Shown piece by piece: positions 15,365 to 19,581 of a DNA stretch of 64,000 bases; within the stretch, counting starts at the first letter, position 1, and every line of letters starts with the position of its first letter. The notes under the pieces are model-generated. The model did not search any database, had not been told where the DNA came from, and saw only the letters and a program-made list of their open reading frames with translations. Origin of the DNA: Catellatospora bangladeshensis (GTDB lineage: Bacteria; Actinomycetota; Actinomycetes; Mycobacteriales; Micromonosporaceae); NCBI RefSeq assembly GCF_016862575.1, contig NZ_BONF01000008.1, positions 248,001 through 312,000 of the forward strand, in the 5' to 3' direction. The translations under genes and the position numbers were made by a program.

Positions 15365-15427
15365 GCGTATAACGTACACAGTACAGCGTATGGCATACAC
15401 AGAAGCGCGTATCACATACACAGAAGG
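15365..15427. repeat. Three tandem 21-bp operator-like repeats
   Basis: Units at 15365-15385, 15386-15406 and 15407-15427 follow the pattern GCGTATnnCATACACAGAAG plus one base. The last two units differ at only 3 of 21 positions; the first is more diverged. Each unit carries a dyad, best in the middle one (GTATG-G-CATAC). The 21-bp pitch places successive sites on the same DNA face. The array fills the TetR/MFS divergent promoter, so the TetR protein is the expected ligand. Confidence 0.8.
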
Positions 15428-15437
15428 TGGCCCCTCG

Positions 15438-16979
15438 ATGAACGAGCCAAGCCCGCCCCTCGCCGGACGCCGCGAGTGGATCGGCCTAGCCGTGCTGCTC
15501 CTGCCCCTGCTGCTCGTCTCGATGGACGTCTCGGTGCTCTACTTCGCCGTCCCGTTCATCAGCGCCGACCTCGCCCCCACCGCCACCCAGCAACTGTGGA
15601 TCTTCGACATCTACGGCTTCGTGCTGGCCGGCCTCCTGATCACCATGGGTGCGCTGGGCGACCGCATCGGGCGCCGCAGGCTGCTGATGATCGGCGCGGC
15701 CGCGTTCGGCGTCACCTCCGCCGCCGCGGCGTACGCGGGCAGCGCCGAGGCGCTCATCGCCACCCGCGCCCTGCTCGGCATCGGCGGCGCCACGCTGATG
15801 CCGTCCACGCTGGCCCTGATCCGCACCATGTTCCACGACGCGAAGCAGCGCGCCACCGCGATCGCGATCTGGACCGCCGCGCTCACCTTCGGCGTCGCGC
15901 TCGGGCCGATCCTGAGCGGATTCCTGCTGGAGCACTTCTGGTGGGGATCGGTCTTCCTGATCAACGTGCCGTTCATGCTGCTGCTGGTCGGGCTCGTGCC
16001 GGTGCTGGTGCCCGAGTCGCCCCGGCTCACCGAGGGACGTTTCGACCTGCCGGGTGCGGCCCTGTCGCTGGCCGCCGTGCTGCCCGTGATCTGGGGCGTC
16101 AAGGAGATCGCCGCCGAGGGCGACGGCACGCTCGCCGGTGCCGCGATCGTGACGGGCCTGGCCGTGGGTGCGGTGTTCCTGCACCGCCAGCGGACCTCGG
16201 CGTACCCGATGATCGACCTGGCCCTGTTCCGCCGCCGCTCGTTCAGCGGCGCGGTCGTCATCAACCTGCTCGCCATGTTCGGGCTGGTCGGCTTCGCCAT
16301 CTTCGCGACGCAGCTGCTGCAGACGGTGTGGGGCATGACCCCACTGGAGGCCGCGCTGTGGAGCCTGGCGCCGTCGCTGCTCGTCGGCGGTGCCGCGCCC
16401 CTGGCCACCAGCCTGGCCCAGCGCGGCGTGCCCCGCTCGCGGCTGGTCGCGGCAGGATTCGGCCTGGCCGCCGCCGGGTTCGCCGGAATGCTCACGATCG
16501 ACGTCGACACGCCACTATGGACGCTGATCGTCTGTTCCGCCTGCTACGCGGCCGGACTGATCGTGGTGATGGCGCTGAGCGCCGAGCTGATCGTCTGGGC
16601 CGCCCCGCCGGAACGGGCCGGTGCCGCGTCCGCCGTGTCGGAGACGTCGTCGGAGTTCGGCGGCGCGCTGGGCATGGCGGTGCTCGGCAGCCTGGGCACC
16701 GCCGTCTACCGCGCCGGCCTCGACCTGCCCGGCGGCCTGCCCGCCGAGGCCGCCCACGCCGCCCACGAGACCCTCGCCGGAGCGGCCGCCGCCTCCGCCG
16801 CGCTCCCCGGCGAGACCGGCGCGGCGCTGCTGACCGCCGCCCGCACGGCCTTCGTCGACGGCCTCCACGCCGCCGCGATCGGCGCCGCCCTGATCATGGC
16901 CACCGCCGCCGCCATCGCCCTGCTCACCCTCCGCGACCGAACCCCGGCCACCGCCACCGCCCCCGCACCACACCCCTGA
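15438..16979 (+). CDS. MFS drug exporter, DHA2 (14-helix, QacA-like) family
   Basis: 513 residues. Helix 1 carries MDVSVLYFAVPFI, motif A is LGDRIGRRRLLM, and motif C is FGVALGPILSGFLLEHFWWG, the signature of proton-driven drug antiporters. The overall length and late helices (LIVCSACYAAGLIVVMALS) fit the 14-helix DHA2 type. ATG 15438 is chosen because GAAGGTGG ends 7 bases upstream; the open frame extends back into the operator repeats. It probably exports a toxic small molecule under control of the divergent TetR regulator. The C-terminus has an Ala/Pro-rich tail. The next feature downstream is palindromic element A1. Confidence 0.92.
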   Translation: MNEPSPPLAGRREWIGLAVLLLPLLLVSMDVSVLYFAVPFISADLAPTATQQLWIFDIYGFVLAGLLITMGALGDRIGRRRLLMIGAAAFGVTSAAAAYAGSAEALIATRALLGIGGATLMPSTLALIRTMFHDAKQRATAIAIWTAALTFGVALGPILSGFLLEHFWWGSVFLINVPFMLLLVGLVPVLVPESPRLTEGRFDLPGAALSLAAVLPVIWGVKEIAAEGDGTLAGAAIVTGLAVGAVFLHRQRTSAYPMIDLALFRRRSFSGAVVINLLAMFGLVGFAIFATQLLQTVWGMTPLEAALWSLAPSLLVGGAAPLATSLAQRGVPRSRLVAAGFGLAAAGFAGMLTIDVDTPLWTLIVCSACYAAGLIVVMALSAELIVWAAPPERAGAASAVSETSSEFGGALGMAVLGSLGTAVYRAGLDLPGGLPAEAAHAAHETLAGAAAASAALPGETGAALLTAARTAFVDGLHAAAIGAALIMATAAAIALLTLRDRTPATATAPAPHP

Positions 16980-16996
16980 CCCCGCGATGATCGCGT

Positions 16997-17065
16997 CGAT
17001 CTTGCGCGAACTGTTAGGGATTTGTCCCATGTGGGCGTGTCGCACCCACAGTTCACGCAAGATCG
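16997..17065. repeat. 69-nt palindromic element A, copy 1
   Basis: 18-bp arms (16997-17014 with 17048-17065, one mismatch; arm begins CGATCTTGCG) enclose a 33-nt centre. The centre can form a GGGA/TCCC hairpin and a second hairpin around CGTGTCG. Copy 2 at 18062-18130 is identical at 63 of 69 positions and in the same orientation. Together they bracket the siderophore-interacting protein gene. It lies just after the MFS stop. Confidence 0.9.
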
Positions 17066-17092
17066 GCGCGGTGGAGGGGGCGGTTGACGGGG

Positions 17093-17111
17093 GGAGGTAA
17101 GGCTAACCTAA
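17093..17111. promoter_or_regulatory. IdeR/DmdR iron box
   Basis: The 19 bases match the DtxR-family consensus TTAGGTTAGGCTAACCTAA at 16 positions, with an intact AGGCTAACCTAA right side. It is 37 bases upstream of the siderophore-interacting protein start, where iron-loaded repressor would block transcription. No ideR gene is in the window. Confidence 0.85.
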
Positions 17112-17147
17112 GGTTGGCTTCATGGGCGGGGTTGGGGAGGGTGTGTT

Positions 17148-18038
17148 GTGACGACGATGGTCTGGCGGCTGTTCGCTGTCGAGGTGAAGGAGGTCAGGCC
17201 GCTTACGCCTACGTTCACGCGGTTCACCTTCAGCGGGCCGGAGCTGGCCGACTTCGCGGACTGCGGGTATGACCTGCGGCTCAAGCTGGTGCTGCCGGCG
17301 CCGGACGGCGGCTTCGACGCTCTAGACCGCGGGCCGGACTGGTACACCGTCTGGCGCGGTACGCCCGAGGAGAAGCGCAACCCGATCCGCACCTACACCG
17401 CCCGCCACGTGCGTGCCGAGGCCGGTGAGGTCGATGTGGACGTGGCGCTGCACGGTGACGCCGGTCCGGCGTCCCGCTGGGCCCGCGCCGCCAAGCCGGG
17501 TGACCGGATCGTGCTGATGGGGCCGAACGCCGCGCACCCCGGCCCGCACGGCGGCGTGGAGTTCGTCGCGCCCGCGCCGGGCGTGCCGGTGCTGCTGGCC
17601 GGCGACGAGACGGCGGTGCCCGCGATCGCGGCGATCCTGGAGCGGCTGCCCGCCGACACCCGGGGCGCGGCGCTGCTGGAGGTGCCGTACGCCGCCGACG
17701 CGCTCACCCTGAACGCCCCCGCGGGGGTGGACGTGCGCTGGCTGGCCCGCGAGGACCTGCCCCGCGGCAGCCTGCTGGTGCCCGCCGTGCAGGAGGCCGC
17801 CGCCTGGCTCGTCCCCGTGCCCGGCGCCGCCGCCACTGTCGAGGATGTCGACGTCGACGTCGACGTCCTCTGGGAGGTCCCCGAGACGAGCACCACCGGC
17901 GCCCTCTACGCCTGGCTCGCCGGCGAGGCCGCCGTCATCCGCACCCTGCGCCGCCACCTCGTCTCCGACCGCGGCCTGGACCGCAGATCCGTCGCCTTCA
18001 TGGGCTACTGGCGCCAGGGCCGCACCGAAGACGCCTGA
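17148..18038 (+). CDS. Siderophore-interacting FAD protein (ViuB/SIP family ferric-siderophore reductase)
   Basis: 296 residues. Releases iron from imported ferric siderophores by reduction. The N-terminal FAD barrel ends in the flavin-binding [11 protein letters not shown]. The C-terminal half has the SIP signature [17 protein letters not shown] and the family ending [16 protein letters not shown] 17148 is chosen because GGGAGG lies 7 bases upstream. An IdeR-type iron box at 17093-17111 indicates induction by iron starvation. A run EDVDVDVDV is encoded by a 30-bp near-perfect DNA palindrome (17841-17870). The gene stands alone between two same-orientation copies of a 69-nt palindromic element, with no siderophore biosynthesis genes nearby. 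Confidence 0.93.
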
Positions 18039-18061
18039 CCGCCCGCCCGCCAAGATCGCGA

Positions 18062-18130
18062 CGATCTTGCGTGAACTGTTAGGATTTTGTCCTATATGGG
18101 CGTGTCGTACCCACAGTTCACGCAAGATCG
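18062..18130. repeat. 69-nt palindromic element A, copy 2
   Basis: Perfect 18-bp arms (18062-18079 with 18113-18130) around a 33-nt centre. The 6 differences from copy 1 include changes that keep an internal hairpin paired (GGGA/TCCC there, TAGGA/TCCTA here). It lies between the converging siderophore-protein and GH76 genes and may also act as their terminator. Confidence 0.9.
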
Positions 18131-18147
18131 CCGGGGTGGGGGGTGGG

Positions 18148-19581
18148 TTACGGGGTGGCGTTCATGAGGTCAAGGGCGGAGTGCTGGCGGGCGGCGTCGA
18201 GTTTGTCGACGGGGCCGGACCAGCGCAGGCCGTAGAGGTCGAGGGGGGTGCGGTCGGCGGCGTAGGCGGTGTCGGCCTGGCGGCGCAGGTAGGCGGTGTA
18301 TGGGTGGTCGGGGAGGGTGGTGTTGAGGACGCCCAGGCCGCGGGCGTAGGGGCCCTTGAAGGAGGGGCCGTCGGCGCCGCAGTCGCCGTTCTCGCAGGGG
18401 TCGCGCAGGATGCCGTTGAGGTGGAGCTGGGTCGTGGTGGTGGAGGCGTCGGCGAGGCGGCGGGCGGTGGTGAGCAGGTTGTTGTCGCCGGTGGCGCGCC
18501 AGAGTTCGACGAGGCCGCCCAGGGGCACGCCCTGGTTGTAGGACCACACGGCCTGGCCGTTGTTGCGGCAGGTGGACAGGCTGATGCCGTCGTTGATCAG
18601 CGACGAGCCGTTGATCATGCCGGTGGCCTGGAACCAGGTCCACTCGGCGCGGGCCCGCTGCAGGTAGACCGTGTCGCCGGGCAGCCGGTTGTGCAGTGCG
18701 GCGTTGACGTGCAGGTAGAGGCTGTTGGAGATGGCGTTCTTGTAGGTGCGGGCGGTGCTCCACCAGATGCCGCCGCCGCAGACGCCGTCCCAGTACGCCG
18801 CCATGTGGTCGGCCGCGATCCGGGCCGTGCTCAGGTAACGGGCCTCGCCGGTGAGGTCGTACGCGGCGAGCCAGGCCAGCGCCCACCAGCCGGTGTCGTC
18901 GAGGTACTCGTTGCGGAAGTGGCCCAGCCGCGAGTTGACGTTCAGGTCGTAGGTGCGCGCGATGGCGTAGCGGTAGCTGCCCATGCCGGTGAGCCGGATG
19001 TTGTCGATCAGCGCGGTGAGCGCGTTCGCCGAGTTCCACCAGCCGGTGGTGCTGAACAGCCCGGTGCTCAGGCTGTACGACGTCATCAGGCCGGTGGCCG
19101 CGGCGGTGCGCCGGTTGCCGGCGTTCCAGGTGGTACGGGCCCAGGCCGTGCAGGCGATCTCGGGCCGGTCGCCGGCCTTGCCGCAGGCGCGCAGCGCCCC
19201 GACACCCAGCGCCGCCCAGTCGTCCACGTTGTACATGCCCGTGCGCCAGCCGCGCTGGCCGGCCGGGACGGCGGTGTCGCCCAGCAGGCCGGTCCAGGTG
19301 CGGCCGCCGTCGAAGGAGCGGTCGAGCCAGACGCGGTCGCCCGGGTTGCCGTTGGCGGTGCTCGCCCAGCCCATGGCGTCGGCGTCGTCGAAGTGCAGCA
19401 CTATCTGACGGCCCCAGACGGACGCGCTGACCGGGGTGCGATCGCCCGGCGACAGCGCCGGGTCGCGCCCGTCGCAGTAGCGGTTGCAGACGGGCGCCGC
19501 GGTGGCCGCCGTCGCCAGCGGCCCGGCCACCAGGCCCGCGACGGCGAGCCCGGCGGCTATGAGACGTGCCGGTAGACGCAT
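18148..19581 (-). CDS. Secreted GH76-family glycosidase (endo-alpha-1,6-mannanase type)
   Basis: 477 residues. The signal peptide is [20 protein letters not shown]... cut near TAATAAP. The GH76 (alpha/alpha)6 barrel is recognisable by the catalytic paired aspartates in [20 protein letters not shown], by [20 protein letters not shown], and by [20 protein letters not shown]. It would cut alpha-1,6-mannan backbones of fungal walls or actinobacterial lipomannan. A possible small N-terminal lectin-like section ([19 protein letters not shown]...) precedes the barrel. A perfect GAGAGCGCTCTC palindrome at 19617-19628 suggests control by a LacI-family sugar regulator not present here. It is monocistronic and convergent with the siderophore gene. 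Confidence 0.85.

Follow-up and report, generated by a model that had tools for sequence, protein, structure and literature searches.

The gene for a siderophore-interacting protein (SIP) in Catellatospora bangladeshensis stands between two copies of a palindromic repeat, both of which are ordinary members of a dispersed family rather than a special pair. This family, for which the name F1 was coined in the present analysis, is best read as a REP/REPIN-like palindrome of gene ends that was dispersed in the past and is now static. Judging from sequence, it probably serves as a two-way terminator that works without a U tract, or as a hairpin that protects RNA 3' ends.

The window, a 64,000-nt stretch at positions 248001-312000 of contig C8 in the source genome (G000), contains both copies on its forward strand. 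The 69-nt core of copy 1 (16997..17065) is located in a tandem gap, 17 nt past the stop codon of an MFS transporter gene (15390..16979, forward strand, PF07690; 15390 is the first ATG, and the codon-usage gene caller favoured 15492). The core of copy 2 (18062..18130) is located in a convergent gap, 23 nt past the stop codon of SIP and 17 nt from that of a glycoside hydrolase family 76-type (GH76) gene (18148..19581, reverse strand, PF03663). With their outer 11-nt extensions, the copies take the 91-nt form at 16986..17076 (left outer end GATGATCGCGT) and 18051..18141 (left outer end CAAGATCGCGA). As the sequence-only reading of this DNA had stated, exactly one gene lies between them, SIP itself (17148..18038, forward strand, SIP and FAD_binding_9 domains), together with a candidate operator at about 17093..17111 on the same strand, which is iron-box-like by its match to the consensus. 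By eye, a GGCTAACCTAA-type site of this kind is retained before SIP in 10 congeners, the remainder of the gap having diverged.

The two same-strand cores are indeed identical at 63 of 69 positions (the differences being at 17007, 17019, 17020, 17028, 17031 and 17043), and the earlier description of 18-nt arms around a 33-nt centre also stands: 18 of 18 arm positions pair in copy 2 and 17 of 18 in copy 1, where the sole unpaired site is a C opposite an A at arm position 11. A longer alignment extends the repeat to 98 nt at 88% identity; the likeness runs past 69 nt owing to the family's outer extension of 11 nt, which is better retained on the left. A 22-nt element end, with up to three mismatches allowed, had no match in 100 shuffles of the window, and the folding z-scores of the window elements against shuffles ranged from -5.8 to -9.5 (RNA) and from -5.7 to -9.8 (DNA), which together exclude a chance origin of the repeat. 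Three sub-threshold Rfam matches were obtained between 16900 and 18300, none of them on the F1 elements; with no match above the gathering score, a known Rfam RNA family was ruled out for the window copies. Canonical terminator-like sites numbered zero between 15300 and 19700.

The proposal that the repeat is a REP- or MITE-like dispersed palindrome was borne out, as F1 occupies at least 120 places in the source genome. An initial genome search returned at least 40 copies that lacked no more than one of the 69 positions (the best 40 of 131 candidates were scored). A covariance model built from 37 copies and run on G000 gave 145 matches, 25 of which were reverse readings of places already counted; the resulting 120 distinct places are a lower bound, as scoring covered 150 of 6775 candidates. 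When 93 fetched regions totalling 1.05 Mb were scanned without gaps, 116 copies were recovered, and 4 places of the 120 given by the model were not among them. A single degenerate copy (score 40.3) was omitted from the counts of covariation, context, strand and stability, subfamily and outer ends, leaving 115. The nearest relative, G007, has 114 distinct sites, unevenly spread along its contig C1: 29 of the 114 are between 2 and 3 Mb, and the two megabases from 5 to 7 Mb contain only 5 and 4. Another congener, G002, is poorer in F1, with 8 copies in approximately 400 kb versus 19 in the corresponding G007 sample. F1 copies or arms are also found at the starts of three G000 contigs, C1 (from 85), C31 (from 15) and C49 (from 15), which suggests that the assembly breaks at the repeat.

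F1 spans exactly 91 model positions at most places and 92 at six, and two subfamilies are distinguished by their centres, TAGGGATATGCCCG versus TGCCCTTTTGCCCG. The arm sequence is near-invariant among the 37 copies, which were collected by similarity, and an arm pattern matched 224 times, about twice per known copy, the reversed-pattern control giving none. In congeners, the intact element is palindromic over 91 nt and has a short inverted palindrome at each end. The left outer end (7 of 8 letters) is present in 67 of 115 G000 copies and the right in 4; the left GATC is found in 11 of 11 G002 copies and 86 of 115 G000 copies, and 5 of the 11 G002 copies retain the right outer end. CGTC-like letters occupy columns 9-12; at column 11, T is found in at least 78 of 115 copies, and congeners often have A.

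The placement of F1 relative to genes, as called with our own codon-usage caller, is far from even. The 116 G000 copies comprise 54 in tandem gaps, 47 in convergent gaps, 8 in divergent gaps, 5 overlapping called genes and 2 at edges. The same regions offer 236 tandem, 65 convergent and 148 divergent free gaps of 69 nt or more, against which F1 is enriched in convergent gaps (p=2e-10) and depleted in divergent ones (p=6e-9); these rates are relative to gaps of the same regions because the regions had been chosen for F1. The five overlaps were judged to be gene-caller read-through: two copies enter last codons, and three are located at dips of the coding score in long merged frames. Tandem copies have a median distance of 28 nt to the stop codon and 99 nt to the next start, and 47 of 53 are closer to the stop (p=4e-9). 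Their orientation is the reverse of the gene's in 39 of 53 cases (p=8e-4); copy 1 of the window has the minority orientation. No gap of at least 60 nt contained two F1 copies among the 109 that bear the element. The stretch from stop codon to F1 is 61% C, with a C/G ratio of 2.56 (106 segments) versus 1.16 in control gaps (187), and in tandem gaps the side after F1 is 50% G. A U tract is absent: of 149 gene-element cases, 4 have TTTT within 30 nt.

Several differences between the window copies had been read as changes that preserve pairing, and this reading failed in the larger family. The supposed compensatory pair at 17031/17043 (columns 46/58) pairs in only 15 of 37 copies, the GGGA/TCCC hairpin pairs in 56% of cells, and the proposed pairs taken jointly pair in 53.0% of cells, compared with 53.3% in shuffles of the same 37 copies. 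Covariation beyond all 2000 shuffles was found for column pair 11:81 together with the outer extension, and the helix X1:X2 scored 185 against a shuffle mean of 166 and maximum of 187, both tests ignoring relatedness; for the inner stem and the centre helix X2:X3 nothing rose above shuffles. Mean folding energies, averaged over both strands, were -48.8, -44.0 and -37.3 kcal/mol in convergent, tandem and divergent gaps, respectively (p=2e-4). This gradient is partly an effect of subfamily: within subfamily B, convergent copies differ from tandem ones at p=0.29 and from divergent ones at p=0.02. The two strands fold about equally well (means of -35.1 and -35.5 kcal/mol). A choice of strand through a G.U versus A.C bias or through stability of the sense strand was not significant: the sense strand of tandem copies is the more stable in 31 of 53 (p=0.08), and the C.A mismatch at arm position 11 is independent of gene orientation (p=0.52).

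In convergent gaps, F1 and other long palindromes largely exclude each other. Among G000 convergent gaps of at least 60 nt, 39 have F1 only, 55 another palindrome only, 8 both and 15 neither. Another long palindrome accompanies F1 in 8 of 49 convergent F1 gaps, as against 31.2 expected from length-matched free gaps (in bins of 4 to 18 gaps); for the 44 gaps with at least 20 nt of room the expectation is 30.4, and none of 200000 draws was as low as 8. Samples of approximately 400 kb gave, in the same order, 8, 22, 0 and 13 convergent gaps of this length in G007 and 3, 25, 0 and 8 in G002 (combined Fisher 1e-5, with gap lengths unmatched); these samples follow C8 by synteny and skip stretches opposite its F1-free part. 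Exclusion in tandem gaps is weak, with 11 double occupancies versus 16.0 expected, and both kinds of palindrome are found in 2 of 8 tandem F1 gaps in G007 and 1 of 3 in G002. Most but not all convergent gaps contain a long palindrome, those without one being 15 of 117 in the F1-chosen regions of G000, 13 of 43 in G007, 8 of 36 in G002 and 2 of 6 in the window.

Six more dispersed palindrome families, of 6 to 30 members each, were recognized in 1.05 Mb of G000 by the motifs TTTCGTGTC, CGACTTGCCTGGCA, AGTTTCGGGGAAA, GAAGCTCCCGCC, GGGCACCTTC and TCATGAACTTA. They are found mostly in convergent and tandem gaps, several with outer CA[AT]GATC ends by eye; examples from regions L084-L176 are L092:14230, L095:151, L128:989, L089:7379, L095:12077 and L113:8827. 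The TCATGAACTTA family has GCGACACGCC and TTAGGG stretches in common with the F1 centre (L113:8827-8881, L124:13868, L138:2121) and, by this resemblance, may be related to F1. Of the genomes sampled, 9 of the 11 from Catellatospora and none of the 289 others have the F2 family (AAGATCGCGGTTTCGTGTC...).

Occupancy of sites is nearly the same in G000 and G007: all 18 F1 sites of C8 are filled in both, as are 25 of 26 comparable sites, a comparison that left out 8 G000 sites with one matching flank and sites outside the fetched G007 sequence. Eight sites outside C8 were visible because the G007 regions had been picked for F1. In 23 orthologous pairs (2 of 25 were dropped because their anchors failed), mismatches amount to 4.0% in the F1 core, 9% in the intergenic flanks and 4-5% in the coding flanks, and gap columns to 4 in the core and 655 in the intergenic flanks. 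The core thus changes more slowly than its flanks, at about the pace of coding DNA. Site-specific oddities are shared by orthologous copies of the two genomes by eye, and their persistence argues against homogenisation. In G002, 12 of the 18 C8 sites could be compared, 6 lacking syntenic neighbours; F1 is present at 5, one of them in an interval expanded to 4.1 kb, and absent from 7. By eye, two of these seven have an F2-type palindrome instead, and a third has an ordinary hairpin.

Among 300 sampled genomes of the Micromonosporaceae, F1 turned up in 8, all of them among the 11 from Catellatospora, and in none of the 289 from 43 other genera (with up to three candidates scored per genome; a smaller survey gave 8 of 61); it is therefore restricted to Catellatospora among the sampled genomes. 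Within the genus, it was not found in the group of G004, G008 and G009.

Vehicles of dispersal were sought in several collections and loci. Viral, plasmid and phage collections contained no exact or similar match, and carriage of F1 by such elements was rejected. The Y1 transposase domain PF01797 has no match in G000; matches exist in 6 of 11 congeners, two of them (in G002 and G005) containing a stop. The four congener loci that were read (L314-L317, in G003, G001, G007 and G002) have no F1 core within about 1.5 kb, and a link of F1 to a Y1/RAYT transposase was likewise rejected. No autonomous parent transposon with F1 ends was seen among the arm matches listed, from which single arms could escape. 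Target-site duplications were not evident by eye in the F1 flanks, and the empty sites are too diverged to align. An integron attC identity was set aside by eye, the motif being one-sided and many copies being in convergent gaps.

That the pair of repeats might form mobile borders of the SIP gene is suggested by its arrangement, two copies in the same orientation around one gene, in G007 as in the source genome. However, the SIP gene was found in 10 of 10 congeners (orthologues with 81-82% identity are present in C. methionotrophica, C. sichuanensis, C. coxensis, C. vulcania and C. paridis, to which contig positions tie G001, G003, G005, G006 and G010, respectively), and only G007 has F1 at the same two places; in the other nine, no copy lies closer to SIP than about 1.5 kb. 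Six of these nine (G001, G002, G003, G005, G006 and G010) have an unchanged order of called genes around SIP (protein-level homology of the neighbours was checked for G002 only), a situation that the sequence-only reading had itself named as refuting the cassette. Neither a duplication around a cassette nor a hotspot for transfer, both of which the sequence-only reading had entertained, is supported. The spacing of pairs, computed on G007, agrees with local density. Within 2.5 kb, 7 adjacent pairs were observed, whereas 6.3 are expected if the local density is retained (p=0.45) and 3.6 if sites are placed uniformly (p=0.08); within 1.5 kb, 6 were observed, against 3.8 (p=0.17) and 2.2 (p=0.03) expected in the same two ways. 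Clustering is at most mild and is explained by the uneven density. With no viral, plasmid or phage match besides, a cassette or transfer unit bordered by F1 was rejected as extremely improbable, and the flanking of SIP by two copies is, we infer, a coincidence. In several congeners, the SIP 3' gap contains another palindrome with GATC-type ends by eye. An inverted-repeat score of at least 17 was reached by the best repeat of this gap in 7 of 11 genomes, with different families, compared with 1 of 11 for the MFS-SIP gap (8 and 6 of 11, respectively, at the laxer score of 12). The presence of SIP in all congeners, with differing palindromes at its 3' gap, indicates that the gene is inherited vertically while its gene-end hairpin switches identity. 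The same gap in G006 (L187) has a long run of CGCGGCT-type tandem units ahead of the palindrome.

Two further explanations concern the family as a whole. F1 could be a selfish REPIN- or MITE-like element with no role in the host, which made copies of itself and survives only in those 3' intergenic gaps where it does no harm; the similarity of dispersed copies to one another, the intact 91-nt form with its inverted outer palindromes in REPIN fashion, and the preference of REPs elsewhere for the same gaps (PMC3733652) would all agree with this. The lack of a linked transposase, in G000 and at the four congener loci, and the static occupancy of sites between close species speak against it, and harmless insertion predicts neither the exclusion of palindromes from convergent gaps nor a core that changes more slowly than its flanks, which makes this explanation unlikely. 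A role at the level of DNA, as a cruciform or a site for gyrase or another protein that handles supercoiling between converging genes, predicts much of what termination predicts, including the strong convergent enrichment, and the near-invariant arms and the equal folding of both strands are in keeping with it. The REP/BIME elements of Escherichia coli have such a role in supercoiling and gyrase action. However, tandem copies of F1 are located beside the stop codon instead of at the centre of the gap, and the presence of unrelated palindromes in the same gap of other species fits a requirement for structure better than one for a binding sequence; a DNA-level role is accordingly considered quite improbable.

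A function of F1 in termination or RNA stability, which was also among the earlier suggestions, fits the position, exclusivity and conservation of the family. Transcribed F1 would form a stable hairpin of 69-91 nt between a C-rich leader and a G-rich stretch. Because it has no U tract, it would either terminate transcription itself in the manner of U-less (I-shaped) terminators or form the stable 3' end left by trimming of Rho-terminated or longer transcripts, and its palindromic form would let it serve the two genes of a convergent pair alike. In the window, copy 1 may end transcription of the MFS gene ahead of the putative iron-regulated promoter of SIP, and copy 2 may end both the SIP and the GH76 transcripts. 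F1 may have arisen after the split from the group of G004, G008 and G009 (or, alternatively, have been lost there) and then spread, to become essentially static between close species. More tentatively, the few dispersed palindrome families of Catellatospora might be interchangeable terminators, a newcomer replacing the resident, such that gene-end hairpins would turn over by exchange of families and not by local point mutation.

F1 is dispersed, palindromic, extragenic and downstream of genes, and is thus REP-like in the broad sense. REP elements, too, are dispersed extragenic palindromes that lie downstream of genes, mainly in convergent and tandem gaps (PMC3733652), and intact F1, a hairpin with two inverted short palindromes at its ends, may share the architecture of REPINs (PMC3116915). 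Unlike these, F1 has a near-fixed length of 69-91 nt, apparently no fixed GTAG/CGTC tag, a right outer palindrome mostly lost in the G000 species, and no RAYT found in G000; for want of transposase linkage at the loci examined, it is not a REP/RAYT element in the strict sense. Nor is it a canonical intrinsic terminator, in which a stem is followed by a U tract. A U tract is missing from 353 of the 535 highly structured 3' ends described for Streptomyces clavuligerus, in which two-way ends also exist; the U-lacking ends are interpreted as I-shaped terminators or trimmed Rho-dependent ends, and enrichment of C at -30 and G at -10 is given for the U-rich class (PMC8269248). F1 shares with these U-lacking ends a stable GC-rich stem and the missing U tract (PMC8269248), but the Streptomyces ends are individual hairpins, whereas F1 is one repeated sequence. 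In the uptake-signal pairs of Haemophilus and Neisseria that act as terminators, a repeated sequence is the gene-end hairpin, as proposed for F1 (PMC5217627, PMC2267715); F1 differs in being a single long palindrome at the at least 120 places in G000, with no sign of an uptake role.

Stem-loop repeat families were reportedly described by Cozzuto et al. in 2008. Families of this kind, as described, are intergenic and defined by a common stem-loop, as is F1 (PMC2267715); the main text of that source mentions neither Streptomyces nor Actinobacteria by name. No description of F1 was found in titles and abstract openings, mostly outside subscription journals, on Catellatospora or on actinobacterial REP, MITE or terminator palindromes. 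The type of repeat is known; what stands out in F1 is that other palindromes are largely excluded from its convergent gaps and that families are exchanged at some sites.

A gene with repeats on either side should not be called a cassette until the genome-wide density of the repeat and the state of relatives have been checked. If F1 does act in termination, the mutual exclusion of palindromes from convergent gaps would be a functional signature that can be measured without transcript data, and repeats supposed to be selfish would be an important source of gene-end structures in a genus of high G+C content.
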